Positions 3,118-25,199 of a DNA stretch of 37,480 nt are shown one piece after another. Each line of letters begins with the position of its first letter. The stretch's first letter is position 1. The DNA comes from an uncultured SAR116 cluster alpha proteobacterium (lineage in GTDB: Bacteria; Pseudomonadota; Alphaproteobacteria; Puniceispirillales; Puniceispirillaceae): assembly GCA_902623185.1 (NCBI GenBank), contig CACNSW010000018.1:1-37480 (forward strand). Direction: 5' to 3'. The position numbers were made by a program, and so were the translations under genes. The notes beneath the pieces were generated by a model, which saw nothing but the letters and a program-made list of their open reading frames with translations, searched no databases and was not told the origin of the DNA.

Positions 3118-3410
3118 TGCCGTACTCCAAATGGCTCAATACTATTTGAGCATCAGTTTAGATCCGGGATTTATTGATTGAGCCCTTTCTATTTTGGAAA
3201 AGAGAATGTGTTATTTGAAAAGCTCGTCGATACGTGCCTTCTCTTGGGTAAAGACGTCCTGCAGAGAGCTTTACAGATGTCCGTAATGCAATCGGCCGCC
3301 TTTTAAAATAAGTTAAGCTTGGGCGACTCGTTTACGATGGACATAAGCGATGTTGAAACAATCAGCCTGCGATAGACTGATTTATCACGTTGTATCAGTG
3401 GATTTTATAT
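3118..3410. other. Intergenic region; possible degenerate gene end, no intact gene
   Basis: No convincing intact ORF was found. A weak 6-bp hairpin (3134-3139 with 3146-3151) follows the cupin stop and lacks a T-run. On the minus strand, 3211-3270 reads as a protein-like tail ending ARIDELFK and a stop. An adjacent frame just upstream reads ADCITDICKAL. Together they resemble the frameshifted end of a lost gene, of unidentified family. Confidence 0.3.
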
Positions 3411-4748
3411 ATGCGTGACCAAAATGCTCTATCTGTTGATTTCAAGCCTGAACCCTATTGGTGGGATCATGCACCGCCAAGCTTGTCTAACGAGGCTGAA
3501 GGTGATTTGCCTGAACGATGTGATGTGGCTGTGATTGGTTCAGGGTATGCTGGGCTTCATGCTGCTATCGTTTTGGCACGTGCAGGGATTGATGTCCTTG
3601 TCATTGATGCTGAGGTTCTTGGGTATGGTGCTTCCTCGCGTAATGGGGGGATGGTGTCAGGTGGAGTGAATGTTGGCAAACATGTTGACCTCGATCGTGA
3701 CCAAGAAAAGACAATGCTTTTAGAAGCGTCGCTTTCCTATACCTGGTTTGAAGACTTTATTCAAACCGAGGGAATAGATGCTGATTATCGACGGACAGGT
3801 CGGTTTGTTGGCGCACATTGTTCTGACGCTTGGAGGATGTTGGCCAAGCGGATGGTGATATTGAATGAGGTTGCCGACTCCTCGGCCTACATGGTGCCAG
3901 CCACGCGGACCCGAGAAGAAATAGGGTCGGACTATTACAAGGGCGGAATGGTTCTCGAGCGGTCAGGTGGAGTTCACCCGGGCAAGTTGCATCAGGGTGT
4001 CCTGCGTGTTGCAAGCAATGTGGGTGCGAAGCTATTTGGCAATATTCGCGCTGGTGCCATAATCAGGAAGGCAGAAGGGTTGCGGTTGGAAACAAGCCGT
4101 GGGCCGGTGACGGCAGACAAAATCATCATTGCAACAAATGGCTATACCGGTGATTTGAGTAAATGGCATCAACGGCGCCTTGTGCCAATTGCCTCATATC
4201 AGGTAGCAACAGAGGAACTTGGCCTTGACGCCGTAACACAACTTTTCCCGAAGCACCGGATGATTGCCGATACCAAAAGACTGCTTTACTACTTTCGTCC
4301 GTCGCCTGACGGAAAGCGGTTGCTCTTTGGTGGTCGTGCCCGTTATCTGCTCCATGACCCCATTGCTGGGGCATTGCATCTTCGGCGCAAGTTGATAACA
4401 GTTTTTCCACAGTTGGCCGGGGTGAAGTTGTCGCATGGATGGTGGGGTAATGTAGCCTATCTGCGTGGCGGTGTGCCCAATATCGGTGAAGGCCAGCCAG
4501 ATATACTACCCGGTGTTTATCATGCACTAGGTTGTCATGGCAGTGGTGTTGTGATGATGAGTTGGTTAGGTTACCAAACGGGACTGCTCATCTCGGGCCA
4601 GACCAACAGCCACAGTGCCTTCTCGCTGGGCGGGATGGCCCCGTTCCCTCTCTATCTTAAGAAACCCTGGTTTCTGCCGGTGGTTGGTGCCTATTATCAG
4701 CTTCGTGATTGGGCAGACCACCATTTAGACAAGAAATCTTCTAGATAA
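3411..4748 (+). CDS. FAD-dependent amine oxidoreductase, PuuB/OrdL-like (copy A)
   Basis: A 445-residue member of the DAO/PuuB family, which oxidises gamma-glutamylputrescine or related amines to the aldehyde with FAD. The N-terminal dinucleotide fold shows VAVIGSGYAG (about 39-48), then the ASSRNGG segment typical of the OrdL group (74-80). The C-terminal half has GWWGNVAYLRGGVPNIG and ALGCHGSGVVMMSW, the usual FAD-contacting end. A longer reading from a TTG at 3390 exists, but the ATG at 3411 is preferred; neither has a clear ribosome site. It starts the plus-strand run of oxidase, synthetase, aminotransferase and binding protein. A paralogue lies at 15379-16710. Membership is clear; the exact amine is not known. 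Confidence 0.88.
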   Translation: MRDQNALSVDFKPEPYWWDHAPPSLSNEAEGDLPERCDVAVIGSGYAGLHAAIVLARAGIDVLVIDAEVLGYGASSRNGGMVSGGVNVGKHVDLDRDQEKTMLLEASLSYTWFEDFIQTEGIDADYRRTGRFVGAHCSDAWRMLAKRMVILNEVADSSAYMVPATRTREEIGSDYYKGGMVLERSGGVHPGKLHQGVLRVASNVGAKLFGNIRAGAIIRKAEGLRLETSRGPVTADKIIIATNGYTGDLSKWHQRRLVPIASYQVATEELGLDAVTQLFPKHRMIADTKRLLYYFRPSPDGKRLLFGGRARYLLHDPIAGALHLRRKLITVFPQLAGVKLSHGWWGNVAYLRGGVPNIGEGQPDILPGVYHALGCHGSGVVMMSWLGYQTGLLISGQTNSHSAFSLGGMAPFPLYLKKPWFLPVVGAYYQLRDWADHHLDKKSSR

Positions 4749-4830: not shown

Positions 4831-6201
4831 ATGATGGACAAGGCAGCCCTATCCTCCTGGGCAGAGTCCTGGCTTGGGGAACACCCAGACATCGAAAGCC
4901 TGCGTGCGGTTGTTTTTGATATCAATGGTGTCATTAGGGGTAAAAGGGTGCCTGTGGACCAACTTGCGAAAATCTGCGGGGGCGGCATGCGTATACCTCT
5001 ATCGTCGGCGAATGTTGATATTTGGGGGCGCGATATCGAGGATAGTAAATGGGTATTTGAGACGGGTGACTCAGATGGGCGCTGTGAATGGACCGGCCGC
5101 GGCCCTTTAATGATGCCTTGGTCTGATCGCGGTGCTGCTATGGTGCCACTGGTTTTGAAAAACGAGGATAAAACGCCTTTTGAAGGTGATACGCGCAATG
5201 CCCTTGCTTTTGTTTTGGATCGCTTTGCAAGGCAAGGGCTTCGACCGGTGCCAGCTTTTGAACTGGAATTCTACCTTGCTGACCCAAAAGCCGTTGATGG
5301 TGTGTTGACCAATCCGCAGACCGGAGCGGCGGTAATTCGCGACGGCGTGCTCTCGCTTGACGATTTGGATGATTTTGAAGTCATCCTTACCGACATTTAT
5401 GACGCCTGCAAAATCCAGTCGGTTGCTGCCGATGCGGCTATAAGCGAAAGCGGTATTGGCCAGTTTGAGGTCAATTTACGTCATTGTGATGATGCTATGA
5501 AGGTTGCTGATGACGCGATGCTGTTTAAAAGTATCGTTAAGTCAGTTGCTCGCAAACACGGCCTCGCGGCGAGTTTTATGGCTAAACCATTTGCTGACAG
5601 ACCAGGCAATGGTCTCCATATGCACCTCAGTGTTCTCGACAGCAATGGGGAGAACATTTTTGATAATGGTGACGCTGAGGGCAGTGAAATGCTACACTAT
5701 GCGGTAGCAGGAGTGCTACACGCGATGCCAGAATCGATGCTTTTGTTTGCACCACATCTCAACTCCTATCGCCGTTTTACTCCAGAACAGCACGCCCCTA
5801 TGGCTGCATGCTGGGGTTATGAGAACCGGACGGCTGCGGTGCGGATACCGGGTGGCCCATCCTCACAGCGTCGGATCGAGCATCGTGTCGCTGGAGCTGA
5901 CACGAATGTCTATCTCGTGATGGCGGCGATACTCGGCGCAGTTCTTGGCGGTATTGAGCGCAAAATGGGGCCGCCCACACCGATAAAGAACAGTGCCTAC
6001 GACAATAACCATAGAAATATGACGACACTGCCGCTCTCATGGCAGGACTCTGTGGATGCCTTTGTCGCAGGGAAAATGCTAAACGAGTTCATTCCCGATT
6101 TACTGCGTGATATGATGATTAAAACAAAAAAGCAGGAAATGCGGCGGTTTACTGCGCTGGTTACGCCATTTGAATATCAATCATATCTTGATCAGGTTTG
6201 A
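4831..6201 (+). CDS. Glutamine synthetase family protein, PuuA-like gamma-glutamylamine synthetase (copy A)
   Basis: A 456-residue glutamine synthetase homologue of the PuuA type, which ligates glutamate to an amine with ATP. The N-terminal beta-grasp part includes the DINGVIRGKR turn (30-39). The catalytic domain shows FELEFYL (Glu144, Glu146), SESGIGQFEVNL (Glu206, Glu213), GLHMH (His263, His265), RIPGG (Arg338) and RRIE (347-350). The usual NPYL near the end reads NVYL. AAGGGG lies four bases before the ATG at 4831 and seven before an adjacent ATG at 4834, so either may be used. It is 82 bases after the oxidase and 45 before the aminotransferase, which suggests co-transcription. A role in gamma-glutamylation of a polyamine or other amine is inferred from family and context; ordinary ammonia assimilation is unlikely. 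Confidence 0.9.
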   Translation: MMDKAALSSWAESWLGEHPDIESLRAVVFDINGVIRGKRVPVDQLAKICGGGMRIPLSSANVDIWGRDIEDSKWVFETGDSDGRCEWTGRGPLMMPWSDRGAAMVPLVLKNEDKTPFEGDTRNALAFVLDRFARQGLRPVPAFELEFYLADPKAVDGVLTNPQTGAAVIRDGVLSLDDLDDFEVILTDIYDACKIQSVAADAAISESGIGQFEVNLRHCDDAMKVADDAMLFKSIVKSVARKHGLAASFMAKPFADRPGNGLHMHLSVLDSNGENIFDNGDAEGSEMLHYAVAGVLHAMPESMLLFAPHLNSYRRFTPEQHAPMAACWGYENRTAAVRIPGGPSSQRRIEHRVAGADTNVYLVMAAILGAVLGGIERKMGPPTPIKNSAYDNNHRNMTTLPLSWQDSVDAFVAGKMLNEFIPDLLRDMMIKTKKQEMRRFTALVTPFEYQSYLDQV

Positions 6202-6246: not shown

Positions 6247-7626
6247 GTGACAAAATTGAATTCGCCCTCGCCTGATGATATTCGTCTCTGGGATAATCGG
6301 AACCTCATGCACCCTTGGCATTCCATGGGAACGTTGGACGCCGATTACATGATCGCCTCAGGTGCTGAGGGCATTTATATCTATGATGAATCTGGTCGTC
6401 GCTATATTGATGGGCCTGGGGGAATGTGGAGTTCGCAGATTGGCTATGGCCGCCAGGAAATGGCGGATGCAATCGCTGCACAAGTGCTCAGATTACCCTT
6501 TAACACGCCGTGGACCTCGACATCGGAGCCAGCGGCACAGCTTGCAGCGAAAATCGCAGCTGAGTCACCGGGTGATCTTAACAACATATTTTTCACCACA
6601 GGAGGATCAACCGCTGTGGACACAGCGTTGCGGTTCGCCCATTTCTACAATAATCTTCGGGGTAAGCCCAAAAAAAAGCACATTATTGCTCGGCAAAAGG
6701 GATATCACGGTTCAACCTTTATGTCTGCCAGCGTCTCCGGAAAGGAACGTGACAAGAGCTTCCTCGACACCGATACCAATCGCGTACATTTTGTGGGAAA
6801 TGTAAATCCTTACATCCGGCCTGACGGTATGAGCGTCGCGGCCTGGTGTGATGAAAAAACAGCTGAATTGGAGGCGAAAATTATCAATGTTGGCGCCACC
6901 CGAGTCGCTGCCTTTATTGCTGAGCCAATTCTAGCGTCAGGCGGTGTGATTGTGCCGCCGGAGGGCTATCACAAGCGCTGCTTGGAAATCTGCCGCCGAC
7001 ATGACGTGCTGTACATTTCTGATGAGGTGGTGACCGCCTTTGGGCGTTTGGGTGAATTTTTTGCGTCCGAGAGCGTGTTCGGCATCGTTCCGGATATTAT
7101 CACTTCAGCAAAGGGTATTACTTCAGGCTATGTGCCGCTGGGCGCAGTGTTGATTTCAGACCGTTTAATGGCTGAACTTACCGCTGATGACCGTTCGGAG
7201 GTGCTGTTCTCGAATGGCTTTACGTATTCGGCGCACCCCGTCTCTTGTGCAGCGGCGTTGAAGAATATCGAAATTATGGAGCGGGAGGAAATCTTTTCTC
7301 ATGTGCGTGCTATTACTCCCCATTTTCAGGCTCGCTTGCAGGAACTGCGGCGTCATGAAATTGTTGGTGATGCCCGGGGCATGGGGCTTCTGGGCTGTGT
7401 TGAAGGCGCGGCGCCATCTGACAGTGGTGAGGAAAAAAGGCTGGCCGTGGACAAAGAATTTGGCTATCGGCTAGATGCTAAATGTGAGGAGAGGGGCCTG
7501 TTGCTGCGGCCCTTGATCAATATGTGTGTGTTTTCACCACCACTAATTATCAACCTGGACGAGGTTGATATTATGTTCGACATCATTGACAGTGCGCTTA
7601 GCGAGGTTAATGCAGAAATGTGCTGA
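6247..7626 (+). CDS. Class III PLP-dependent aminotransferase (copy A)
   Basis: A 459-residue fold-type I omega-aminotransferase, the family of putrescine/spermidine:pyruvate and beta-alanine:pyruvate aminotransferases. The PLP lysine is Lys289 in TSAKGITSGY and the pyridine-contacting Asp is Asp259 in ISDEVVTAFGR. The phosphate-binding loop, usually SGSEANDTA, reads GGSTAVDTA (119-127), which is unusual and differs from copy B. The start is GTG at 6247 with GGAG seven bases upstream; an ATG at 6234 is out of frame and opens only a 13-codon reading. It is third in the plus-strand module and probably moves the primary amine of a diamine or omega-amino acid onto pyruvate or a similar acceptor. 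The substrate is unproven. Confidence 0.9.
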   Translation: MTKLNSPSPDDIRLWDNRNLMHPWHSMGTLDADYMIASGAEGIYIYDESGRRYIDGPGGMWSSQIGYGRQEMADAIAAQVLRLPFNTPWTSTSEPAAQLAAKIAAESPGDLNNIFFTTGGSTAVDTALRFAHFYNNLRGKPKKKHIIARQKGYHGSTFMSASVSGKERDKSFLDTDTNRVHFVGNVNPYIRPDGMSVAAWCDEKTAELEAKIINVGATRVAAFIAEPILASGGVIVPPEGYHKRCLEICRRHDVLYISDEVVTAFGRLGEFFASESVFGIVPDIITSAKGITSGYVPLGAVLISDRLMAELTADDRSEVLFSNGFTYSAHPVSCAAALKNIEIMEREEIFSHVRAITPHFQARLQELRRHEIVGDARGMGLLGCVEGAAPSDSGEEKRLAVDKEFGYRLDAKCEERGLLLRPLINMCVFSPPLIINLDEVDIMFDIIDSALSEVNAEMC

Positions 7627-7755: not shown

Positions 7756-8811
7756 ATGAAAACCACCGGAATTATTTCTGCTTTGACTGCTGCGACCATG
7801 TTGGTGGGCGGATTTGCGGTTGCCGCAGATAAGGATCTTGTCATTTTTGACTGGGCTGGATATGAAGACCAGAACTTTTATCTGAGCTACATTGAAAAAC
7901 ATGGAGATCAACCGACCTACTCCTTCTTCAGCGACGAAGAAGAGGCTTTCAACAAGATCCGTGCCGGGTTCAAAGCCGACATGGCACATCCGTGCTCGCA
8001 GTCGGTCATCAAATGGCGGGAAGCGGGTATTATTGAGCCTTTCGATACATCAAGGATTCCAAATTGGGGAGATATATCTTTCGGTGACGCAGAGGGCTTT
8101 ACGGTAAACGGTGATGTATATGTTGTTCCAGTTGATTGGGGTTCAACAGGGCTTGCTTACAGAACCGACTTGGTTAGCGCGGCTGACGCTGCAACGCTTC
8201 AGTCCTTTGCTGACCCCAAATTCCAGGGGCGCATTTCGTTGCCTGACAACGTTGATGATGCATATGCCCTGGGATATTTAGCAAATGGTATAACAGATTG
8301 GAACAAGGGCACAGATGCTGATTTTGAGGCAGCGTCTGATTTTCTCCGAAAGGTGCATGCCAATGTCAGAACATATTGGGCTGATGGAGCTGAATTGAGC
8401 CAACTTATGGCGTCAGGTGAGGTCTTGATTTCCTGGGCTTGGAGTGAAACCCCTGTGACTATGCAAGCCGAGGGTCACCCTGTAGAGATGAACTTAAAAA
8501 CTAAAGAGGGTTCATCAACTTGGGTTTGTGGCTATGTTAACATGGTAGATGGTCCTGGCTCTGAAGACAAAATGTATGACTTCATAAATGCTTGGTTAGA
8601 ACCGCGTTCAGCAGAATATATTGTCACTGAGTGGGGATATGGTCATTCCAACTTAAAGGCTATGCTTGCGCTTGGCCAAGACACTCTGGATGGGGTAGGC
8701 TTTTCTAATTTTGAGACATATACTGACGGTACTTTGCAACAGGCACCGTTGCCCTTTGAATTAAGGGAAAGGATGATCGCTGAATTTGAAAAAATTAAAG
8801 CTGGCTTCTAA
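7756..8811 (+). CDS. Periplasmic polyamine-type ABC transporter substrate-binding protein, PotD-like
   Basis: A 351-residue PotD/SpuD-type binding protein (family 1 extracellular solute-binding). The start at 7756 is set by GGGGAGGG (7743-7750). It opens a typical signal peptide with cleavage expected after AVA (about residue 23). The mature part begins DKDLVIFDWAGYED, like PotD proteins, and has an acidic and aromatic content suited to cations (FFSDEEEAF, VDWGSTGLAYR, YWADGAELSQL). It probably delivers a polyamine or other cationic amine to the PotABC-like proteins encoded convergently just downstream. A terminator is shared between them. The ligand cannot be read from the sequence; putrescine, spermidine, agmatine or an N-methylated amine are all possible. 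Confidence 0.9.
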   Translation: MKTTGIISALTAATMLVGGFAVAADKDLVIFDWAGYEDQNFYLSYIEKHGDQPTYSFFSDEEEAFNKIRAGFKADMAHPCSQSVIKWREAGIIEPFDTSRIPNWGDISFGDAEGFTVNGDVYVVPVDWGSTGLAYRTDLVSAADAATLQSFADPKFQGRISLPDNVDDAYALGYLANGITDWNKGTDADFEAASDFLRKVHANVRTYWADGAELSQLMASGEVLISWAWSETPVTMQAEGHPVEMNLKTKEGSSTWVCGYVNMVDGPGSEDKMYDFINAWLEPRSAEYIVTEWGYGHSNLKAMLALGQDTLDGVGFSNFETYTDGTLQQAPLPFELRERMIAEFEKIKAGF

Positions 8812-8891: not shown

Positions 8892-9995
8892 TTAGCCGTC
8901 CAATACCGTAATTGACTCATATCCCCAGCCTATACGTGTTTCGGTTCCTGCACGCAAAACAGGCCTCCCAGCAGTGTTGCGCATAGATACAGTCGCTCTA
9001 ATGGCAGTATTCCCCAACTCGACCTCATAGTAGGTCATATCGCCGTAATATGACGCACTGACTATAATGCCACTGAAAACATTATCGGCGTCATCAGTTT
9101 CTTCGTATAGGATGGTTAGCATCTCTGGTCGAATGCCGACCGTAATTTTTTCACCCGACTTTATGGTATCCGAGGCCCCCACATCCACTTTTCCCAAAGC
9201 CTCAACATCCAATGAAAGTTTTGTTTTCGTACTCGCAATAACTTTCGCTGGTATGAAATTCATAACCCCGATAAATGAAGCCACCCGCTTGGTTTTGGGA
9301 CGTTTGTATAAACCTTCGGGCGTATCAAGCTGGGCGATTTTCCCGTCAAACATAACTGCTATCCTGTCGGACATTGTCAACGCTTCCTCCTGATCATGTG
9401 TTACCAGAACAAAAGTGATTCCAACCGTGCGTTGAAGCTTTCGGAGCTCGCCCTGCATTGTCTCCCGCAATTTTTTGTCAAGTGCAGACAATGGTTCATC
9501 CAAAAGAAGCACTTTTGGCTTCATAATAAGTGCTCTAGCTAGGGCGACACGCTGTCGTTGTCCGCCTGAGAGGGCATGAGCCTCCCTAGCGCCGTACCCT
9601 TCAAGGTCTACTAGGGCGAGCGCTTCTTCGACACGAAGTTTAATTTCGTCCTTGGGCAATTTTTGCTTTTTAAGCCCATAGCCCACATTTTCAGCAACAT
9701 TTAGATGAGGAAAAATTGCGTAAGATTGGAAGACCATATTGGTTGGACGTTGGTTTGGAGGAACATTGGTCATATCTGAACCGTCAATGTAGACACTGCC
9801 AAGATTCGGGCTATCAAACCCAGATATCATCCGCAATAAAGTAGTCTTTCCACATCCCGATGGGCCAAGCAGAGAAAAAAATTCTCCCTCCTTAATAGTG
9901 AGGGAAACGCCGTTTAGTGCAGTGACGTCACCGAATTGCTTTTCCACACCTTTTATGTTGATTATTTGTTTATTTGTTTTTTGTGGTCTCTTCAT
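8892..9995 (-). CDS. potA: Polyamine-type ABC transporter ATPase, PotA-like
   Basis: A 367-residue ABC ATPase of the PotA/FbpC group that powers import through the two permeases encoded upstream. It has Walker A GPSGCGKT (44-51), the signature LSGGQRQR (142-149), Walker B VLLLDEP (162-168), and a switch His in VTHDQEEA. A C-terminal TOBE-like regulatory domain covers roughly 290-365, the usual length and layout for this group. Its start overlaps the end of the preceding permease gene by four bases (ATGA), so translation is probably coupled. It is the last gene of the minus-strand run. Transporter class is confident; the transported compound is inferred. Confidence 0.92.
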   Translation of the reverse strand: MKRPQKTNKQIINIKGVEKQFGDVTALNGVSLTIKEGEFFSLLGPSGCGKTTLLRMISGFDSPNLGSVYIDGSDMTNVPPNQRPTNMVFQSYAIFPHLNVAENVGYGLKKQKLPKDEIKLRVEEALALVDLEGYGAREAHALSGGQRQRVALARALIMKPKVLLLDEPLSALDKKLRETMQGELRKLQRTVGITFVLVTHDQEEALTMSDRIAVMFDGKIAQLDTPEGLYKRPKTKRVASFIGVMNFIPAKVIASTKTKLSLDVEALGKVDVGASDTIKSGEKITVGIRPEMLTILYEETDDADNVFSGIIVSASYYGDMTYYEVELGNTAIRATVSMRNTAGRPVLRAGTETRIGWGYESITVLDG

Positions 9996-10816
9996 TGAAA
10001 TATCCCATCATTAGATTGGGAATGGCCGCCAGTAAGGCGGTTGGCTCGGCGTCGAAAATACTCAGCAGTTAGCAGCAGAAAAAAGGATAGACTGACCATT
10101 AAAAACCCAAGGGCCATGATCGCAGGTAAACGAGCTGGAAACCTCAGTTGACCCCATATGTAAACTGGAAGGGTTACGTCTGTTCCGGTGAGAAAAAATG
10201 CGATGATAAATTCATCTAGTGAAATAGTAAAAGATATCAAAAGGCTTGAGATGATGCCTGGTGTTACCAAAGGCAAAATGACACGAAAAAATGTGCCAAG
10301 CTTGTTCTCACCTAAGTCCATGGATGCTTCCTCTAGACTCCGGTCCATATTATTGAAAGCTGACTGGAGGATGGCAATCGAGAAAGGTGTGCAGATCAGA
10401 ACATGGCCAATAATGACGGTCCAAGCGGACAGCGATAGGCCAAGCTGTATGAGCACGACAATTAGAGCCACGCCGACAATGATTTCTGGCAGGACAAGCG
10501 GGACCATAATAAAGCCAACTATGCCACGCTTACCCGGAAACTCATACCGTGCCGCGGCACGAGCCGCAAAAATGCCCAGTGTCGTACTTCCGACTGCTGT
10601 GATCACAGCGATCAAAAGCGAATTATAAAGAGCTTCATGTAAGGCCTTTGTTTCCCACAACAAGCCAAACCAATGAAGTGTGAAACCAGAAAGTGGTAGT
10701 GCAATGATGGCGCTATCATTAAATGCGAAAAGCGGCAACAGCATTACGGGTGCATACAGAAAGATGAGATAGAAAACGGCGTAAGTAAAAAGGCTTTTAG
10801 GTGGTTTGCTGGACAT
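9992..10816 (-). CDS. potC: Polyamine-type ABC transporter permease, PotC-like
   Basis: A 274-residue inner-membrane permease with about six helices. The FNDS motif after the first helix is typical of PotC. The cytoplasmic EAA loop is present as LEEASMDLGENKLGTFFRVILPL, here in its usual position about 100 residues from the C terminus. It pairs with the PotB-like subunit to form the channel, driven by the PotA-like ATPase. It follows the PotB-like gene after 12 bases and overlaps the ATPase gene by four, a tight operon. Confidence 0.9.
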   Translation of the reverse strand: MSSKPPKSLFTYAVFYLIFLYAPVMLLPLFAFNDSAIIALPLSGFTLHWFGLLWETKALHEALYNSLLIAVITAVGSTTLGIFAARAAARYEFPGKRGIVGFIMVPLVLPEIIVGVALIVVLIQLGLSLSAWTVIIGHVLICTPFSIAILQSAFNNMDRSLEEASMDLGENKLGTFFRVILPLVTPGIISSLLISFTISLDEFIIAFFLTGTDVTLPVYIWGQLRFPARLPAIMALGFLMVSLSFFLLLTAEYFRRRANRLTGGHSQSNDGIFQ

Positions 10817-10828
10817 CTTAATGACCCT

Positions 10829-11752
10829 TTAGCCTTTTACTTTTAGAAAGCGCCTGTTGAGTAAGACAAATACAATAGATATGGATGCAACAATGACCAT
10901 TGCTGACACAGCTAGGGCTGATCCCAGCGGGGCGTTGTTGGCTTTTCCAAATTGTATTTGTATCATGTTGGCAATCATCAGACCGTCAGTGCCGCCGAGC
11001 AGTCTTGGTGTTACGTAATCACCGACAGTTGGAATAAACACTATTAATGAGGCAGCAACAACGCCAGGCATTGAGAGTGGTAGCGTTACCCGTAAGAATC
11101 GTCTTAAAGGTCCATCGCCTAAATCTCGTGCAGCTTCCAGAAGGCTTTTGTCGATGCGCGAGATGGAGACAAAAATTGGTAGAATAGCGAAAGGTGCCCA
11201 AGCATGCGCCAAGGTTATTACTACTGCGTTAGCATTATATAAAATGAATGTAAGTGGCTCTTCAATGAATCCCATTCCAAGAAGGCTGCCATTTACAACA
11301 CCGTTGTAACCCAAAATTACTTTCCAAAGGAAAACTCTTATAAGGTAACTTGTCCAAAACGGAATGGTAATCAGAAGTAGCCAAATCGCTTTTCGCTTGC
11401 CGCCAAAAAATGCAATGTAGTAGGCGATTGGGTAGGCGAGTAGCACAGTAACTATTGTAACAATTACAGATATGACAACTGAACGTGCCATTAGAACTTG
11501 ATATAGTTTTTCAGATGCCGCTTCCTTGTAGTTGGTAATGGTAAATGTGCGGTCAAGTTCCAGATAATTCTGTGTCCACATGCTGAGCAAGAACACTAGC
11601 AGCAAGGGCGCGGCCAGCATTAAAAGCGAATAGGCGAATGGCGGGCTGATTAATGCCAACCCACTCCACCCGCCAGGTTGCATTGAAGGAAAAAAACGCA
11701 GTTTACGCCATGGCTTTACTGGATTTTCCTCGGATGGAGTTTCATGTCGCAT
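10829..11752 (-). CDS. potB: Polyamine-type ABC transporter permease, PotB-like
   Basis: A 307-residue permease with an N-terminal cytoplasmic tail of about 30 residues and six predicted helices. The ATPase-contacting EAA loop reads LLEAARDLGDG, followed by RVTLPLSMPGV. The PTVGDYVTPRLLGG segment is characteristic of PotB proteins. Its ATG directly abuts the stop of the Rieske oxygenase gene (11753), so the two are almost certainly translated from one message. It acts with the PotC-like, PotA-like and PotD-like proteins of the same locus. Confidence 0.9.
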   Translation of the reverse strand: MRHETPSEENPVKPWRKLRFFPSMQPGGWSGLALISPPFAYSLLMLAAPLLLVFLLSMWTQNYLELDRTFTITNYKEAASEKLYQVLMARSVVISVIVTIVTVLLAYPIAYYIAFFGGKRKAIWLLLITIPFWTSYLIRVFLWKVILGYNGVVNGSLLGMGFIEEPLTFILYNANAVVITLAHAWAPFAILPIFVSISRIDKSLLEAARDLGDGPLRRFLRVTLPLSMPGVVAASLIVFIPTVGDYVTPRLLGGTDGLMIANMIQIQFGKANNAPLGSALAVSAMVIVASISIVFVLLNRRFLKVKG

Positions 11753-12964
11753 TTAGGGACCTATTAACGCTGCATTTTGCGCCGCAAGCGTTCCCAATTT
11801 TGGTGACTGTTTGAGCGATAAGACCGGCATTAGATCACGCAAATGATTGTGGAAACTGCTAACACCGTATTCCAAATCCGAGAGGATAATCCCATCAAAG
11901 CCACTCGAGAGTGGAGCTTCATCTGTCCAGCGGGTTAATTGTAAGTCCTCGTCTGCAGTCAGACCATCAATGCGCCCAGATAAGTACCGGGCCGCACGCA
12001 TCGCACGCGTTTCCTTACGATGTCGATAGACGGCGCCACGCTGCAAGGTGTGCTTTGTACCGACAGGTACTTCCTGGTAGAAAATGATTGAGTCCGGGTA
12101 AAGCCCAATTACTGCATTTGGGAAGATCCCGATATAAAGCCACGCAGCATTCAGCGGATCTGGCAAATGGGTGAATTGAGAGACAAGAGCACGATAGGCC
12201 TTGACGCTCCACAATTTGGAGGGTGAGCTGTTGAATTTGCCAAGGCTACGAGAAGTACCATTAATATAAGGCTCATCGATATAGGCCTTACCATATAGAT
12301 CCTGAAGGCTCGGATGGGCTTTGGCGACATGGTAACCCTCGTTGTCGACATCTCGCATGGATTTCCAGTTCACTTCCGCCTCGGCAAAGATGAAATCACC
12401 CGCGACACGTTCCATATCGGCAATGTTGTAGGGTGCAATTTCACTGTCGAAACGTCGCAACATTTCGGCCACGCTGCCCTGTGGGCCGGTCTGAAAACGT
12501 ATGAAAATAAACCCATTCCATATCTCGAGTTCAACCGGTTTTAAACCCCACTCTATTGAATTTAGCTCCGGAAAGGTTGATGGCTGTGCTGCGCTTCTTA
12601 GCGTGCCATCAAGATTGTAAGTCCAGCCGTGAAAAGGGCATGTCAGCGCTGATTTACAGACACCTCTCTCATTGTCAACCACCCGGCTGCCCCGGTGTCG
12701 ACAAAGGTTGTGAAAGGCACGAATCACTCCAGCCTTGTCACGAAGTATCAATGCTCGTTCATACCCCATGTCAAAGGTGACATAAGCGCCAGGCTCGGCA
12801 AGGTCACTAATATGACAAGCAAGTTGCCAATGCGCACGAAAAACAAGGTCCTGTTCCAGCGCAAAAAGCTCATCATTGCTGTAGGCCCAACCAGGCAAGC
12901 CTTGCCTGTCCCAATTGCCAGGGTTCGTGTTTTCTAAGTCTGATAGAGGCAAATCACCCACCAT
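11753..12964 (-). CDS. Rieske-type oxygenase alpha subunit, quaternary/methylated-amine oxygenase-like
   Basis: About 403 residues. The N-terminal Rieske domain binds a [2Fe-2S] cluster through CRH (Cys88, His90) and CPFH (Cys109, His112). The C-terminal domain holds the mononuclear iron with His212 and His217 in EGYHVAKAHP. The residue linking the two centres, three before His212, is Glu209 rather than the Asp of aromatic dioxygenases, as in CntA (carnitine) and GbcA (betaine) type enzymes. The ATG at 12964 has AAAGGGA seven bases upstream and is preferred over an ATG at 12988. No reductase or ferredoxin partner lies in the window. Fusion to a polyamine importer operon suggests the substrate is imported by it, possibly an N-methylated amine. 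Family certain, substrate inferred. Confidence 0.88.
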   Translation of the reverse strand: MVGDLPLSDLENTNPGNWDRQGLPGWAYSNDELFALEQDLVFRAHWQLACHISDLAEPGAYVTFDMGYERALILRDKAGVIRAFHNLCRHRGSRVVDNERGVCKSALTCPFHGWTYNLDGTLRSAAQPSTFPELNSIEWGLKPVELEIWNGFIFIRFQTGPQGSVAEMLRRFDSEIAPYNIADMERVAGDFIFAEAEVNWKSMRDVDNEGYHVAKAHPSLQDLYGKAYIDEPYINGTSRSLGKFNSSPSKLWSVKAYRALVSQFTHLPDPLNAAWLYIGIFPNAVIGLYPDSIIFYQEVPVGTKHTLQRGAVYRHRKETRAMRAARYLSGRIDGLTADEDLQLTRWTDEAPLSSGFDGIILSDLEYGVSSFHNHLRDLMPVLSLKQSPKLGTLAAQNAALIGP

Positions 12965-13081
12965 TACTAAATCCCTTTGATTGCACATTTTTTTCCCATT
13001 GATATCAAGTAAAAAGACAGTGGTTCCCAGCGCGCGGTTCTTATTCGAAGTTTTATTGTGAAGGATGCGCTTGTGGCTGTA

Positions 13082-14254
13082 TCAATTTGGATTGGCATTA
13101 CGCCGAAGCCATGAAACCAATAGATAAAACAGACCAACACTAACTAGAAAAATTGGGAGTCCTAGCTGCATATTGACGTCTAGCAGAACCCCGGCAAGGG
13201 TAGGGCCAATCAGATTAGAAAGCTCGAAAATAATCACAAAGCCGGCATTTGCTGCAATGATTTCACCGCCAGTAAAACGTTTTGATAGCATTGCAAGACC
13301 GATCGAATACAGTCCATAAACAAGCCCTGCACCTAAAAAGGCAAGTAGCAGTGCAGCAATGGCGGAGGTAAGAAAAAATGGGATCATGCTGCATAGGGCT
13401 AAGCCAATTGTGGCGATAATCATACCAATTCGTCGAAGACCAAAACGATCAGCCAGAATGGCAATTGGATATTGCAAAATGACATTACCAATCGCCATCG
13501 CAGGCACAATTGCCAGTGTAAGAATTGATGCTGCTTCGGGCGTACGCGCAACGATTACCGGCACTAAAGTAATCAGTGCAAGGTCGGCCCCACCAGCAAC
13601 GACACAGGCCATAGCAACCGTCGGCGCCCGGCGGATTAGTAATAGGGGTGAGCCGCCACCACAAAAAGTAATTTCTGGTTCATGCTTTCGCAGCGCAAAA
13701 ATTGGCAAAGCGCCGATTAGTGGCAAGATGGCAATGACAAAAAAGGGAGTGGTTGTCTCAAATCCAAATATCCAGATAATTCCTGGGCCAGCTGCAAATC
13801 CGAGGCCAATAGCGGTTGCATAGAGTGCCATCACCCTGGTACGCCCCTTATCGGAGGCTATTCTTGTGAGCCACGCCTCGCTAAGCACCCAATGTAACCC
13901 TAAGCCAAGGCCAGCGATGAAACGAATGACAAGCCAGAGCAAAATTGACTCCGTAAAGCGCAGTGCCACCATCATTAATGCGGCTAGACACAGGCCAATA
14001 TTGATGACCAGGATATTGCCGTACCTTGCGACCAGGTGCGGAGCAAAATAGGCGCTGGACACTATGCCAAGCGCAGCCATTCCGCTAACGATACCGATTT
14101 TTTGAAAGGAGATGCCAAGCGTTTCCAGCCAAAGTGAAATCAAAGGCAGGTAACCACCAAAAGCAGCACCAAGCGCGATTGATGAGAGCGTGATCATAAA
14201 TAGACCGGGCGCCGTAGTTAGTTTGTCAGAGGTGGTGAGAAAATTGCGAAACAT
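13082..14254 (-). CDS. Major facilitator superfamily transporter, YcaD-like
   Basis: A 390-residue MFS protein with about 12 transmembrane helices. It resembles the YcaD group: an early GGYLPLISLWLE segment, the helix 4-5 region with LGLHWVLSEAWLTRIA, and the cytoplasmic KGRTRVMALYATA loop. Direction and substrate are unknown. It lies 117 bases before the Rieske gene on the same strand and may be the first gene of a five-gene operon ending with the PotA-like ATPase. It is divergent from agmatinase across a 147-base control region. A role in amine or drug efflux, or amine uptake, is possible but not shown. Confidence 0.85.
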   Translation of the reverse strand: MFRNFLTTSDKLTTAPGLFMITLSSIALGAAFGGYLPLISLWLETLGISFQKIGIVSGMAALGIVSSAYFAPHLVARYGNILVINIGLCLAALMMVALRFTESILLWLVIRFIAGLGLGLHWVLSEAWLTRIASDKGRTRVMALYATAIGLGFAAGPGIIWIFGFETTTPFFVIAILPLIGALPIFALRKHEPEITFCGGGSPLLLIRRAPTVAMACVVAGGADLALITLVPVIVARTPEAASILTLAIVPAMAIGNVILQYPIAILADRFGLRRIGMIIATIGLALCSMIPFFLTSAIAALLLAFLGAGLVYGLYSIGLAMLSKRFTGGEIIAANAGFVIIFELSNLIGPTLAGVLLDVNMQLGLPIFLVSVGLFYLLVSWLRRNANPN

Positions 14255-14401: not shown

Positions 14402-15373
14402 GTGACCGATAAACTTGGTGATCAGACGTTTAGAGCAACCGGCAATAAAGAATGGTGGCCGGAGATGACATATGGTGGCGCACTGAGTTTCGGCCGCCGT
14501 CGGTACAGCCGTGATGTCACGGATGTTGATGTTGTGATCAGCGGTATTCCCTTTGACAATGCTGTGACCTACCGACCTGGCACACGACTGGGCCCCCGCG
14601 CCATTCGTGCTGGTTCAGTACAATTGACTGAACTAAAGCATTTTCCATCAGGAGTTGAACCGTTTGAGAAAATGTCAGTCATTGACTACGGTGATTGCAT
14701 GATAAATCCACATGACCCGACAAGTGTCTTTAAAACAATTGAGACCCATGCAGATTATATTCTGGCATCAGGTGCGAAGATGCTGAGCCTAGGTGGTGAT
14801 CACTCAGTAGCTTATCCACTTCTCAAGGCACATGCTAAGAAATACGGGCCTGTTGCATTGATCCAATTTGACGCTCACTGCGACACCTGGGAGGATGATG
14901 GCGTCCGATTTGATCATGGCACAATGTTTGCCAGAGCCGCTAATGAGGGAATTGTTGATGTGTCAAAGTCTACTCAGGTTGGATTACGCACCTATAATGA
15001 CACCGACTACGGTTTTGAGATACTTACAAGTCCATGGGTGCATCGCAATGGAATTTGGGCAGCACTGGAAATTGCTATTGATCGGGCGGGTGACGTGCCG
15101 GTCTATTTGTCCTTTGACGTTGACGGCTTTGACCCGGCATATGCTCCTGGCACTGGAACGCCAGTCTCTGGTGGACTTGCCAGTTGGCAGGGGTTGGAAT
15201 TTATACGCGGCCTTGAACCATTAAATTTGGTTGGGATGGATATCGTTGAGGTGGCTCCCGCTTATGATCATGCAGAGATTACTGCGATTGCTGCTGCAAG
15301 CGTTGCTTATGACTGGCTGGCCGTTCTGGCTAAAAAGCGAGGGGCGATGACAAAGCCTGTAGGGCGAGTTTGA
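14402..15373 (+). CDS. speB: Agmatinase / ureohydrolase family enzyme
   Basis: A 323-residue ureohydrolase; agmatinase converts agmatine to putrescine and urea. All manganese-binding motifs are present: GGDHS (131-135, His134), QFDAHCD (Asp157, His159, Asp161), and SFDVDGFDP (Asp239, Asp241) followed by APGTGTPVSGG. The GTG start at 14402 has AGGAG six bases upstream; the overlapping ATG at 14400 is immediately followed by a stop. It stands beside two sets of polyamine-processing genes, which fits agmatinase, but related guanidino-acid hydrolases such as guanidinobutyrase share these motifs. The family is certain, the exact substrate likely but unproven. Confidence 0.9.
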   Translation: MTDKLGDQTFRATGNKEWWPEMTYGGALSFGRRRYSRDVTDVDVVISGIPFDNAVTYRPGTRLGPRAIRAGSVQLTELKHFPSGVEPFEKMSVIDYGDCMINPHDPTSVFKTIETHADYILASGAKMLSLGGDHSVAYPLLKAHAKKYGPVALIQFDAHCDTWEDDGVRFDHGTMFARAANEGIVDVSKSTQVGLRTYNDTDYGFEILTSPWVHRNGIWAALEIAIDRAGDVPVYLSFDVDGFDPAYAPGTGTPVSGGLASWQGLEFIRGLEPLNLVGMDIVEVAPAYDHAEITAIAAASVAYDWLAVLAKKRGAMTKPVGRV

Positions 15374-15378
15374 CCCGA

Positions 15379-16710
15379 TTAAATTTTCAGCCGGTCCCGT
15401 AATTTATAATAGGCCATGCCAAGTGCAAGTGCTGGTATTCGCAACGGTCCTCCCGGAAACGGCATATGGTTGAGACTGCTAAGGACATTGAAACCTGTTT
15501 GATCGCCAATTACAGCCTCTGCCAGCATCACCCCAGCCTGACCCGTCAGGGCCACGCCGTGGCCAGAAAAACCCTGCACGAAATAAATGTCATCTGGCGT
15601 GCGGCCAAATTGTGGAATGCGGTTAACGGTGATACCAATCTTGCCCGACCATACAGCTTCCTTCTCAGCATTTTTCAAAATTGGAAAGATTTTGACCATG
15701 CGGCGGCGCAGATCAGCCTCGACATCACCAAAATGGATATTCGTGTAACTTGCCCTTCCTCCAAAGATCATCCTTCCCTTTGCATCAATTCGGTAATAGT
15801 TCAAAGCAGCGTTACAATCGGCAACCGCGGCACCGGTTGGCATCAAGTGCCTGATCACATTGGGTGAAAGGGGTTTTGTCGCCAGCACCGAGGATGTAAC
15901 TTGTGCTAAACGTGATTTCATGCTCGGCAGGCCAACATCAGCCAAATAAGCGTTGCCACAAAGCAGTAGGATTTTTGCTCGCACAACTTGGCCGGATCGG
16001 GTGTGAAGATGCTTATAGCCATCAAAGTGGTTGGTTTTGATTTTCACAATTGGCGTGTTTTCATAGATTAATCCGCCCTGTTTAGCCGCGGCAGCGGCAA
16101 GACCATGAAGATATTTTAAGGGCTGCATATGCCCAGACTTACTATCAAATAGGCCGCCTACATAAGCGTTTGTGTCAACATGGGCGTTGAGCGCAGTCCG
16201 ATCCTCTAGACGGATGAAAGCATCATAGCCACGTGCCTCCCACTCGCGCTGCATTTCATCAAGAGACTCCATCTGTCGCTTGTGATAAGCGGCCTCTACA
16301 TAGCCAAAGGTGAGCTCACAATCAATTTTGTATCTGTCCACCCTATCTTTTACTAAATTAACAGCCGCCATGCCGCTATCCCAGGCAACCTTGGCATCCT
16401 GCTCGGATAGCTGGCGCTGGATTTGGTAAAAATCATTTGGCCAGCCCTGGCAGACATGCCCGCCATTGCGTCCTGAACCGCCAGTGCCGAGCTTGCCAGC
16501 CTCCAGTACCATGGCTGAGTAACCATTCTCGGCAAGATGCAGTGCTGCGGAAATGCCGGTCAAACCCCCACCGATAATCGCTATATCTGTATCTGCTGAC
16601 TCCTCAAGGATTGCATATTGCCTCCGCTCGGAAAACTCAATTTCATAAATGGAACTCTCGCCAGACAAATTGACCTCCCGAATTATGGCCCCCTTCTGAG
16701 AGGTGCGCAT
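15379..16710 (-). CDS. puuB: FAD-dependent amine oxidoreductase, PuuB-like (copy B)
   Basis: A 443-residue PuuB-family flavoprotein, probably oxidising gamma-glutamylputrescine or a related amine. The FAD fold shows IIGGGLTG (45-52) and SGRNGGH (79-85). The C-terminal half has WSGKIGITVNRIPQFGR and a VQGFSGHGVALTGQAG segment, both typical of PuuB. Its stop is five bases from the agmatinase stop (convergent), and its start is 109 bases from the divergent aminotransferase gene, so it probably shares a control region with that operon. It is closer to classical PuuB in its motifs than copy A. Confidence 0.9.
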   Translation of the reverse strand: MRTSQKGAIIREVNLSGESSIYEIEFSERRQYAILEESADTDIAIIGGGLTGISAALHLAENGYSAMVLEAGKLGTGGSGRNGGHVCQGWPNDFYQIQRQLSEQDAKVAWDSGMAAVNLVKDRVDRYKIDCELTFGYVEAAYHKRQMESLDEMQREWEARGYDAFIRLEDRTALNAHVDTNAYVGGLFDSKSGHMQPLKYLHGLAAAAAKQGGLIYENTPIVKIKTNHFDGYKHLHTRSGQVVRAKILLLCGNAYLADVGLPSMKSRLAQVTSSVLATKPLSPNVIRHLMPTGAAVADCNAALNYYRIDAKGRMIFGGRASYTNIHFGDVEADLRRRMVKIFPILKNAEKEAVWSGKIGITVNRIPQFGRTPDDIYFVQGFSGHGVALTGQAGVMLAEAVIGDQTGFNVLSSLNHMPFPGGPLRIPALALGMAYYKLRDRLKI

Positions 16711-16819
16711 TGATTGCGCCTGACAAAGATTGAGAGTAGTCTGTAATGAACGGGGTGATCAAGCCAATCGGAGAAATTGTGCTGTGGTTTGTCAAAATTC
16801 CTAAAACATCAGAACTGAC

Positions 16820-18202
16820 ATGAGCAAGACAATGACACCAGATGATCTATCGACCAAGGAGTGGCAGAATCTCGACTCGGCCCATCATATGGCGCCGTTT
16901 ACTGATTATGGTGAGCAGCGCAAGCATGGAGCACGCATCATTACCCATGCAAAAGGTCATTATATCTATGACTCCGACGGAACACGCATTCTTGATGGAA
17001 TGGCTGGTCTGTGGTGTGTGAATGTTGGCTATGGAAGAAAGTTACTTGTGGAAGCAGCGGCCCAACAAATGGCGCTACTTCCGTATTACAATAATTTTTT
17101 CAAGACCAGCAACAAGCCTGTGGTAGCCCTGTCTAAACGGTTGGTTGATATAAGTCCCGACGGTCTAAACAATGTTTTCTATGCCAATTCAGGCTCTGAG
17201 GCAAATGACACTATTATCCGCATGGTCCGTCATTTCTGGGCTCTTGAGGGGCGGCCAGAGCGCCGGGTCATCATTGGTCGGCAACATGGGTATCATGGTA
17301 GCACAATTATGTCTGCAAGCATGGGCGGCATGTCAGGCATGCATGATCAGGCTGCTAATGAGGCGGATTTTGCGCATATTCGCCCCCCTTACGGGTTTTT
17401 GTATCAGGGCAATCAAGACGATGCTGTTTTTGCGGCGAATGCGGCGTCGTGGCTAGAGGATAAAGTCATCGAGATTGGTGCAGACAAGGTTGCTGCCTTT
17501 GTGGCCGAACCGGTGCAGGGTGCGGGTGGTGTGATTATTCCACCCGACGATTATTTTCGACATATTCAGAACATCTGTAATCGATATGACATTTTATTTA
17601 TTGTCGACGAGGTGATCACTGGTTTTGGACGCACCGGCGAATGGTTTGCTAGCAAGAGAATGAACCTGTTGCCAGATATGATGACAATGGCTAAAGGCCT
17701 GACATCAGGATATATGCCGATGTCAGGCGTCATGGTAGGTGACCGTGTTGCCGACAGAGTTATCGCGGATGGGGGAGAGTTCTATCACGGTTTCACTTAT
17801 TCTGGCCATCCGGTCTCGGCTGCGGTGGCTTTGGCCAATCTCGATGTGATCGAGAATGAAGGGTTAATTGAGCGTGTGCGAGAGGATACCGGTCCCTATC
17901 TGGGAGAGGCATTGAAGCCGCTTAATGATCATCCTCTTGTTGGTGAAGTTCGTACCTTTGGATTGCTAGCGGCCATCGAACTTGTTAAAAAAAAGGACGG
18001 CCCCGTGCTCTTTGATAACTTAGGTCACGCGGGTGGGCTTTGCCGAGATTATGCTCTTTCACACGGGTTGATGATGCGTGCAGTTCGTGACGGGATGATT
18101 CTGTCACCACCATTAACTTACACGCGTGATGACATCGACGCCACTGTGGCAATTGCCAAGACAGCGCTCGACGCTACTGCGGCGGATCTAGGAATCTCAT
18201 AA
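16820..18202 (+). CDS. Class III PLP-dependent aminotransferase (copy B)
   Basis: A 460-residue omega-aminotransferase of the SpuC/putrescine-pyruvate type. It has the canonical phosphate loop NSGSEANDT (123-131), Asp263 in IVDEVITGFGR, and the PLP lysine Lys292 in MAKGLTSGY. The opening LDSAHHMAPFTDY is common in polyamine and beta-alanine aminotransferases. It starts an operon-like run with the PuuA-like gene (54 bases later) and dihydroorotase. Compared with copy A the active-site loops are standard, so the two probably act on different amines. The specific donor is not determined. Confidence 0.92.
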   Translation: MSKTMTPDDLSTKEWQNLDSAHHMAPFTDYGEQRKHGARIITHAKGHYIYDSDGTRILDGMAGLWCVNVGYGRKLLVEAAAQQMALLPYYNNFFKTSNKPVVALSKRLVDISPDGLNNVFYANSGSEANDTIIRMVRHFWALEGRPERRVIIGRQHGYHGSTIMSASMGGMSGMHDQAANEADFAHIRPPYGFLYQGNQDDAVFAANAASWLEDKVIEIGADKVAAFVAEPVQGAGGVIIPPDDYFRHIQNICNRYDILFIVDEVITGFGRTGEWFASKRMNLLPDMMTMAKGLTSGYMPMSGVMVGDRVADRVIADGGEFYHGFTYSGHPVSAAVALANLDVIENEGLIERVREDTGPYLGEALKPLNDHPLVGEVRTFGLLAAIELVKKKDGPVLFDNLGHAGGLCRDYALSHGLMMRAVRDGMILSPPLTYTRDDIDATVAIAKTALDATAADLGIS

Positions 18203-18256
18203 TAACGCATTTGCAAACAGGGCATTTCTGTTTTCGTTTGGCTCGATGGGGGGCAT

Positions 18257-19597
18257 ATGAGTATCGACATTAAGGAATGGCTGCGCGAAAAGTCGATCAC
18301 TGAGGTTGAATGTCTGGTGAGTGATATGTCGGGTATTCCACGTGGCAAAATTCTGCCTGTTCACAAATATGTATCGGCAATAGAGACAGATGGCCTGCGT
18401 TTGCCAGAATATGTTTTTGGCCAGTCTGTCACTGGCGAATATTACGATAGTGACGTTTTGAATGAAATTGGCGCGGATATCGTGTTGAAGCCCGACCCCG
18501 CAACTTGTCGACTGGTTCCTTGGTATGCGGAGCCAACTGCACAAATCATCCATGACGCTGTCGACAATAAAGGCAAGATCGTGCCATTTGCGCCGCGCGC
18601 CGTTTTGGCGCGTGTGCTAACGCTGTTTGATGAGGCCGGTTTGAAACCAGTGATTGCACCAGAACTAGAATTCTTTCTTGTTGAACAGAGCGCGGATGCC
18701 AACAACCCTCTTGTTACTCCAACCGGTAAATCAGGCCGGGCTGAAAAGGCGCGGCAGGCATATGGTATCGACGCGGTGAACGAATTTGATCCACTTTTCG
18801 AGGAAATTTACGACCATTGTGATATGCAGGGGCTTGATATAGACACTTTGAGCCATGAGGCCGGTGCGGCGCAGATGGAAATCAATTTCAATCATGGTTC
18901 AGCTATGGATCTCGCTGACCAGGCATTCTTATTCAAGCGAACTGTAAGGCAAACGGCATTGAACCATAAAGTACATGCGACTTTTATGGCCAAACCAATG
19001 CAAGACCAACCTGGCAGTGCGATGCATGTTCACACCTCGGTCAGCAACAAGAATTCGGGAAAAAATATATTTGTGGATGATAATGGTGAACAAACCGATG
19101 AATTTTTGCATGCCATTGCCGGAATGCAGCGTTATCTGTCGGTGGCGATGGCTTTGATGGCGCCTTATGTCAATTCCTATCGCCGCCGCACAGGGGCGGA
19201 GGATGCGCCGACCAATTTGGCCTGGGGAATGGATAATCGCACTGTCGGTTTGCGCGTTCCTCTTGGCAACCCAAAAAGCCGTCGTATCGAAAATCGTCTG
19301 CCCGGCGCTGATGCAAACCCCTACCTTGCTATTGCCGCTACACTGGCCGCAATTTGGCTTGGACTTGAAGAGAAAAAACGGCCAAGTAGGCCCTTGAAAG
19401 ATAGTGGGGAGGATCTCGAAACCCTTCCAAAAAATCTGGACATTGCCCTTGATGCTCTAGAAAAAGCTAGCCCATTGCATGCCGTACTTGGGGAGGATTT
19501 TGTTCGTTTATTTATCGAAGTCAAACGTGCTGAGGCAGACGCCTTTCTCGAAGTGATCAGCCCGTGGGAGCGGGAGTATCTGTTATTGAGTGTCTGA
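18257..19597 (+). CDS. puuA: Glutamine synthetase family protein, PuuA-like gamma-glutamylamine synthetase (copy B)
   Basis: A 446-residue PuuA-type ligase that attaches glutamate to an amine using ATP. Motifs are MSGIPRGK (24-31), APELEFFL (Glu136, Glu138), MHVHTSV, LRVPLG, RRIENR and the canonical NPYLAIAAT. The ATG is preceded by a G-rich ribosome site. It lies between the copy B aminotransferase and dihydroorotase on one message. It retains NPYL where copy A has NVYL, so it is the more standard family member. A gamma-glutamylputrescine synthetase role fits the nearby PuuB-like oxidase and agmatinase; ethanolamine or other monoamines are alternatives. Confidence 0.9.
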   Translation: MSIDIKEWLREKSITEVECLVSDMSGIPRGKILPVHKYVSAIETDGLRLPEYVFGQSVTGEYYDSDVLNEIGADIVLKPDPATCRLVPWYAEPTAQIIHDAVDNKGKIVPFAPRAVLARVLTLFDEAGLKPVIAPELEFFLVEQSADANNPLVTPTGKSGRAEKARQAYGIDAVNEFDPLFEEIYDHCDMQGLDIDTLSHEAGAAQMEINFNHGSAMDLADQAFLFKRTVRQTALNHKVHATFMAKPMQDQPGSAMHVHTSVSNKNSGKNIFVDDNGEQTDEFLHAIAGMQRYLSVAMALMAPYVNSYRRRTGAEDAPTNLAWGMDNRTVGLRVPLGNPKSRRIENRLPGADANPYLAIAATLAAIWLGLEEKKRPSRPLKDSGEDLETLPKNLDIALDALEKASPLHAVLGEDFVRLFIEVKRAEADAFLEVISPWEREYLLLSV

Positions 19598-22308: not shown

Positions 22309-22528
22309 ACTATATCCTGTCTGAAACTTTCGCTGATCATCAAAACTTACCTGCGTTTCTCAGTTTTTTTTGGTTAAACACCATCATTGAAATATCATGA
22401 TCCAAATCGCCTAGATATACACAACAACATCTGGACAACTATGACTAATATCCTAGTATTGGATTGGGTATCTTTTGAACAGCGCTACCCAAATGCAGGC
22501 TTATATAAAAATGCAAAGGGATAGGAAA

Positions 22529-23344
22529 ATGAAAAAACTTAAATGTTTGTTTTCAGCGATTGCCATGGTGGCAATTGCTTTGGGCTTAACGTCTCCAGCA
22601 ATGGCCGATAGCGTCATTGATGACGTGGTCAAACGTGGAAAGCTAGTCGTAGGATTAGCAACATTTGTGCCGTGGGCGATGCGAGATAAAAAAGGTGACT
22701 TGATAGGTTTTGAAATTGATGTTTCAAACCAGTTGGCCAAGGATATGGGCGTCGACGTTGAGCTCGTGCCGACAGCTTGGGATGGAATAATACCCGCACT
22801 TCTAGCAGGCAAATTTGATGTCATTATCACGGGTATGGTTCACAAACCTGCTCGAAATTTGACGATTAACTTCTCAAAGCCCTACGCCTATCTGAATGTT
22901 GGAATGGCTGCGAATAAGGCTCTTGCTCAAAAAGATGGTCTAGAGTCGATGGATGACTGGAATAGCAGCAAAGTTACACTGACAATAAAGCGGGGAACTG
23001 CGCCAGGAGAGACCGCCTCTAGATTATTCCCAAAAGCAAGAGTTCGACAGTTTGATGATGATGCTCAGGCATTGCAAGATGTGCTGAATGGAAATGCGCA
23101 TGCATTTCTGACCTCTGAGCCAAAGCCTGCCTACTATGTAATTGATAACCCAGATGTTCTTTATCACCCATTTGGTGTTGGGCCTTTTGATCCATCTGCT
23201 TCAGCTTTTGCTGTTCGAAAGGGTGATCCAGATGCTCTCAATTTCTTTGACAATTGGATCCAGTATAGGACCCTTGATGGCTGGCTGGAAAAAACACACG
23301 CAAAGTGGTTCCAGTCCCGTGATTGGAAAGATCAAGTCAACTAA
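22529..23344 (+). CDS. Amino-acid-type ABC transporter substrate-binding protein (SBP family 3)
   Basis: A 271-residue periplasmic binding protein. The ATG at 22529 has AAGGG eight bases upstream and opens a signal peptide ending at AMA (about residue 26). A longer frame from 22475 has no support. The mature part starts VIDDVVKRGKLVVGL, followed by GDLIGFEIDVSNQLAKDMG and AWDGIIPALLAGKFDVIITGM, the classic polar amino acid binder pattern. It is followed at once by two permease genes. The ligand may be an amino acid or related organic acid and cannot be read directly. Confidence 0.92.
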   Translation: MKKLKCLFSAIAMVAIALGLTSPAMADSVIDDVVKRGKLVVGLATFVPWAMRDKKGDLIGFEIDVSNQLAKDMGVDVELVPTAWDGIIPALLAGKFDVIITGMVHKPARNLTINFSKPYAYLNVGMAANKALAQKDGLESMDDWNSSKVTLTIKRGTAPGETASRLFPKARVRQFDDDAQALQDVLNGNAHAFLTSEPKPAYYVIDNPDVLYHPFGVGPFDPSASAFAVRKGDPDALNFFDNWIQYRTLDGWLEKTHAKWFQSRDWKDQVN

Positions 23345-23377
23345 TCAAGAAGTTACACGGGCTCGTGCTGAAAGGTT

Positions 23378-24259: not shown

Positions 24260-24260
24260 A

Positions 24261-25142: not shown

Positions 25143-25173
25143 AAACCTTCGTTTTATACATGGAAGTTTTTTT
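25143..25173 (+). terminator. Weak terminator after the permease genes
   Basis: An imperfect 8-base stem (25143-25150 with about 25162-25169) runs into seven T residues ending at 25173. It sits in the 57-base gap between the convergent permease and ATPase genes. Stem quality is poor, so this is tentative. Confidence 0.35.
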
Positions 25174-25199
25174 GACTGGTTCTTTGAAGTAATGAGGAC

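Follow-up and report, generated by a model that had tools for sequence, protein, structure and literature searches.

A conserved Rieske oxygenase, Pot-type importer and aminotransferase cassette of Alphaproteobacteria, with a probable role in the N-demethylation of an imported cation

The window, the whole 37,480-nucleotide stretch of SAR116 DNA analyzed here, contains a cassette in which a Rieske oxygenase gene is coupled to genes for an ABC importer of the Pot type, a periplasmic binding protein and a class III aminotransferase (AT1). Its gene content, order, conservation, co-occurrence and active-site residues were observed directly, and these data strongly support the cassette as a real, co-inherited functional unit. 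With moderate confidence, we suggest that it serves to take up an organic cation that is N-methylated, probably quaternary, and to remove N-methyl groups from it oxidatively; we infer the substrate class, the reaction and the order of steps from these features. The binding protein and PotABC would import the compound, and the Rieske enzyme, supplied with electrons by an unlinked reductase, would hydroxylate an N-methyl group, which would leave as formaldehyde. Flavin- and folate-dependent enzymes, linked in many lineages and unlinked in the window's genome, would then strip further methyls, and AT1 would transaminate the freed amine.

A preliminary description of this DNA had the Rieske gene abutting potB, with potB, potC and potA following tightly, and the ORF coordinates and Pfam domains bear this out (Table 1). 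Both on the minus strand, the Rieske gene (ending at 11753) and potB (starting at 11752) have 0 nt between them; potB and potC are 12 nt apart, and potC and potA overlap by 4 nt. The binding-protein and AT1 genes run convergently to this operon, preceded by genes for a PuuB-like oxidase (PuuB1) and a glutamine-synthetase-like ligase (GS1). Starting at the first ATG, the Rieske frame would instead span 11753-12988 (minus strand, 411 residues). We prefer the start at 12964 because an AGGG lies about 8 nt upstream of it, and because codon 4 of the frame from 12988 is a TGA in another genome of the genus. The MFS gene upstream of the Rieske gene is found in the window's genus and one other genus. 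Promoter and terminator scans returned no more sites than were found in shuffles.

Table 1. The cassette and its flanking genes in the window (feature, position, strand, remarks; scores in bits).
Rieske oxygenase alpha subunit	11753..12964	-	403 residues; Pfam Rieske and Ring_hydroxyl_A
PotB-like ABC permease	10829..11752	-	BPD_transp_1; PotB model 195 bits, equivalog cut-off 348
PotC-like ABC permease	9992..10816	-	BPD_transp_1; PotC model 167 bits, cut-off 326
PotA-like ABC ATPase, TOBE domain	8892..9995	-	ABC_tran and TOBE_2; TIGR01187 381 bits, cut-off 355.6
PotD-type periplasmic binding protein	7756..8811	+	convergent with potA; 351 residues
Class III aminotransferase AT1	6247..7626	+	PRK07036 650 bits, cut-off 618
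Glutamine-synthetase-like ligase GS1	4831..6201	+	SAR116-only local neighbor
DAO-family FAD oxidase, PuuB1-like	3390..4748	+	local neighbor only
MFS transporter	13082..14254	-	directly upstream of Rieske gene, same strand
Agmatinase-family ureohydrolase	14402..15373	+	divergent from Rieske-potBCA operon

A GTDB genome scan for relatives of the Rieske protein matched hundreds, of which 80 were retained; with six plasmid loci, these make up the 86 relatives' loci underlying our linkage counts. The relatives share 48-92% identity and come from marine SAR116, Rhodobacteraceae and soil Rhizobiales. The distribution thus extends beyond marine alphaproteobacteria to soil Rhizobiales. The Rieske-potBCA order is not peculiar to one genome and recurs in dozens: potB lies on the Rieske strand at 68 of the 86 loci and is directly adjacent at 34, while AT1 and the binding-protein gene are found near the Rieske gene at 62 and 52 loci, respectively. 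Annotated plasmid copies of the cassette occur in Shinella, Rhizobium, Parasedimentitalea and Fuscovulum. Of 61 genomes sampled around the SAR116 MAG, 17 possess the Rieske gene. Fifteen of the 61 carry both it and the binding protein, two the Rieske gene only (both being incomplete genomes), four the binding protein only, and 40 neither (Fisher p = 6e-9). Moreover, divergence of the Rieske protein parallels that of the Pot proteins, the binding protein and AT1 (mirror-tree r = 0.82-0.89), a correlation confounded by species descent. Ten proteins were scanned near Rieske genes that have no Pot set, and no betaine/choline transporter was found among them.

Other lineages add further genes to the cassette. 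These encode a BetI-like TetR regulator (a repressor), two FAD oxidoreductases related to CrtO, OYE-type flavoproteins, methyltransferases, second Rieske proteins and, in some, a flavin amine oxidase. A folate-binding protein of the GcvT type is added as well, and the model that fits it best is that of the C-terminal region in TMAO demethylase. Flavin and folate enzymes of this sort act in the demethylation of tertiary and secondary amines, as in dimethylglycine and sarcosine metabolism. Import followed by oxidative N-demethylation had been proposed as the simplest reading of the window, and it is supported by these linked demethylase-type genes; the BetI-like repressors and second Rieske paralogs strengthen it further. 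Against it stand the absence of the flavin/folate demethylase cluster beside the Rieske gene in the window's genus, two features of the enzyme described below (a missing cysteine pair and the fit to terephthalate dioxygenase) and the range of ligands taken by PotD-type binding proteins. Within the order, the full FAD1-FAD2-GcvT set stands beside the Rieske gene in only one family (genomes G038, G041 and G047), and the window's own genome (G000) yielded neither the FAD1 nor the GcvT-like genes that Rhizobiales carry in their cassette. This genome encodes five FAO_M proteins, of the dimethylglycine/sarcosine-dehydrogenase type, elsewhere. In Parasedimentitalea, gcvT and lpdA adjoin the Rieske gene (L102, 8138-15182), and Planktomarina loci feature gcvP and gcvT downstream of the binding-protein gene (L036, 16503-20853); such neighbors may indicate glycine or methylene-folate as a product.

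The Rieske protein displays the alpha-subunit signature, with [2Fe-2S] ligands in CRH and CPFH (C-x-H / C-x2-H) and a mononuclear iron site comprising His212, His217 and Asp340 (403-residue numbering). All 40 aligned homologs share the cluster ligands, the RDVDNEGYHV motif, the second His and the Asp ligand without exception, and this Asp (348 in the 411-residue numbering) aligns with Asp323 of the carnitine monooxygenase CntA. With the 403-residue start, the bridging Glu209 indeed lies three residues before His212, as first described. This Glu is a mark of group V oxygenases; it falls within DNEGYH in all 40 homologs and aligns with Glu205, which has the bridging position in CntA (PMC10952381). 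CntA and the stachydrine demethylase Stc2 also carry a Cys-x-x-Cys pair beside the mononuclear iron (PMC10952381). This pair, which marks some of the group V enzymes, is absent from the window's protein and its family, where EGYHV replaces ECYHC and Gly and Val stand for the two cysteines. The second Rieske paralogs at the same loci retain ECYHC. A further locus in the window's genome (L003, 1084-2172, contig C47) encodes a 362-residue match to the Rieske catalytic domain in which the usual C-x-H / C-x2-H motif is not visible.

The best PDB sequence matches are CntA, at the top, and Stc2. CntA, a group V enzyme, has in common with the window's protein an alpha-only Rieske fold, the Glu bridge and the His-His-Asp iron site, but the two are only about 25% identical, and the window's enzyme lacks the cysteine pair and a linked reductase and resides in a cassette with a Pot-type importer and an aminotransferase. 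Stc2, compared by protein rather than by gene context, likewise has the Glu bridge, with 24% identity in the structural alignment and the same difference in the cysteine pair. The AlphaFold model (pLDDT 87) matches Stc2 (Z 34.3, rmsd 2.9 over 351 aligned residues), 3n0q, CntA (Z 33.5) and terephthalate dioxygenase (Z 33.2); Stc2 is the top match but tied with the others, as Z differences of about 1 are too small for a ranking. Structural matching thus failed to tell quaternary-amine oxygenases from terephthalate dioxygenase. The best NCBIfam model is that of the glycine betaine monooxygenase GbcA, to which the protein scores 139 bits against an equivalog cut-off of 670; a second Rieske paralog at the Parasedimentitalea locus is nearer to GbcA (304 bits). 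Assignment of the Glu bridge to the carnitine and betaine type thus holds in its alignment with CntA and Stc2, but is weakened by the absent cysteine pair and by a terephthalate dioxygenase that fits the model about equally, and the bridge alone falls short of proof for a quaternary-amine substrate.

These same two features would suit an enzyme that hydroxylates the ring of an N-heterocycle or another ring (homarine, trigonelline and other N-methylpyridinium compounds would be examples), with the flavoproteins acting on ring-opened N-methyl products. A 2026 study in Nature Microbiology reportedly describes a homarine catabolism pathway conserved in environmental bacteria, and N-methylglutamate dehydrogenase genes are said to be tied to homarine use. 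No N-methylglutamate dehydrogenase genes were seen among the annotated cluster genes, ring hydroxylation has no obvious need for the linked class III aminotransferase, and the Glu bridge is that of CntA and Stc2. We therefore regard ring hydroxylation as unlikely.

The importer has the fold and gene set of the PotABCD and YdcS-type polyamine importers, and its ATPase exceeds the polyamine ATPase subfamily cut-off. Its PotB, PotC and PotD, however, score far under their equivalog cut-offs, the binding protein reaching 64 bits against 582 for PotD. YdcS and PotD fit the model of the binding protein (pLDDT 87.7) equally well, both with Z 34.1. An aromatic box of W33, Y36, W229, W256 and Y295 is kept, aligning with PotD W34, Y37, W229, W255 and Y293, and the equivalent of Y37 is conserved in 26 of 27 relatives' binding proteins. 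In all 27, PotD D168 is replaced by N165, E171 by D168 and D257 by C258, such that two of the three acidic residues of PotD, D168 and D257, are lost. In PotD, the residues compared here contact spermidine. This pattern would suit a cation held by aromatics and by fewer acidic contacts than polyamine binding calls for. GABA and opines are also ligands of PotD-type binding proteins, which means that an importer of this type is compatible with more than one substrate class. C80 and C258 of the binding protein (351-residue numbering) do not vary among the 27 relatives; their counterparts in PotD are S83 and D257, and they lie close to where the ligand binds.

Could the substrate instead be an ordinary polyamine or diamine, hydroxylated by the Rieske enzyme beside a Puu-type polyamine pathway? 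The importer is of the PotABCD type, and in SAR116 two sets of genes for PuuA-like ligases, DAO-type (PuuB-like) oxidases and aminotransferases, together with an agmatinase-family gene, flank the cassette on both sides; agmatinase relatives of 51-52% identity also adjoin it at L056 and L059. Yet the ligases GS1 and GS2 score 217 and 212 bits, far from the 650-bit cut-off for gamma-glutamylputrescine synthetase, and the Puu-like genes are unlinked to the Rieske gene elsewhere: GS1 occurs in 3 and PuuB1 in 2 of the 86 relatives' loci, and relatives of GS1 with at least 55% identity occur in four genomes of the family that lack the Rieske gene. GS1 and PuuB1 are local company, outside the conserved cassette, and PuuA/PuuB-like genes were dropped as pathway members because they are unlinked outside SAR116. 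Taken with the Asn and Cys that replace D168 and D257, the low PotD score, and the fact that putrescine and spermidine offer no N-methyl group to the linked demethylase-type genes, this makes a polyamine substrate quite unlikely. The initial proposal that the cassette feeds the adjacent ligase, oxidase and aminotransferase sets survives for the aminotransferase, which is widely linked, but not for the ligase or the DAO oxidase. The second polyamine-like set of the window (14402-19597) comprises an agmatinase-family gene, a DAO oxidase, a class III aminotransferase scoring above the PRK07480 cut-off and a glutamine-synthetase-like ligase, and lies next to the dihydroorotase gene pyrC.

The position of CntA as best sequence match, together with the common Glu bridge, would also accommodate a CntA-type C-N cleavage, in which hydroxylation of the carbon beside a trimethylammonium group releases trimethylamine and an aldehyde. 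The FAD, GcvT-like and OYE genes linked in other lineages suit stepwise N-demethylation better, and the annotated neighborhoods showed no trimethylamine monooxygenase; we consider cleavage of this kind about as unlikely. It is highly improbable that the Rieske gene simply rides along in a transporter operon without sharing a function with it: AT1 does sit divergently between the Rieske gene and potB in most Rhizobiales, and the gene is patchy, occurring in 2 of 288 other Alphaproteobacteria genomes drawn evenly from the class (about 1%), but its strong co-occurrence with the binding protein, a tight adjacency repeated in distant lineages and its placement beside a second, more diverged Pot set at four loci (L033, L055, L077 and L096) all argue for a shared role. 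The 2 of 288 mark the cassette as an accessory trait.

Oxidative N-demethylation by the Rieske enzyme would call on the unlinked reductase proposed above. The window had been described as having no reductase near the Rieske gene, and none of the window proteins that were scanned proved to be one; a reductase from the same genome, used as a query against the window, likewise gave no significant match. Elsewhere in the genome, contig C5 carries a 317-residue ORF with NAD-binding and C-terminal 2Fe-2S domains, relatives of which are present in genomes G003 and G007. Its domain composition resembles that of oxygenase reductases, and we propose it as a candidate for this role.

A literature search for a described pathway combining a Rieske oxygenase, a Pot importer and an aminotransferase found none; the genes of the published homarine pathway lay outside this comparison. 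More tentatively, then, the cassette could represent an undescribed pathway of marine and soil Alphaproteobacteria, in which an importer derived from PotABCD but adapted to a quaternary amine, a subfamily of Rieske demethylases with the RDVDNEGYHV motif and no cysteine pair, flavin/folate demethylation and transamination would together consume an abundant N-methylated cation. If so, it would constitute a new and testable sink for methylated nitrogen. Pot-type importers in marine and soil bacteria are commonly taken to denote polyamine uptake, a view that would be partly wrong if this one carries N-methylated cations. The cassette is also found in cultured strains of Shinella, Rhizobium, Mesorhizobium, Phyllobacterium and Sulfitobacter, which would permit tests independent of the uncultured SAR116.

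Two other regions of the window merit brief description. An amino-acid-type ABC importer lies at 22475-25961, whose plus-strand genes encode the binding protein and a pair of permeases and whose ATPase gene is on the minus strand; it adjoins genes for a DUF6282 protein and a member of the FAA-hydrolase family. At 28159-31121, a DNA photolyase gene is directly followed by a gene for a photolyase-related protein (DPRP).
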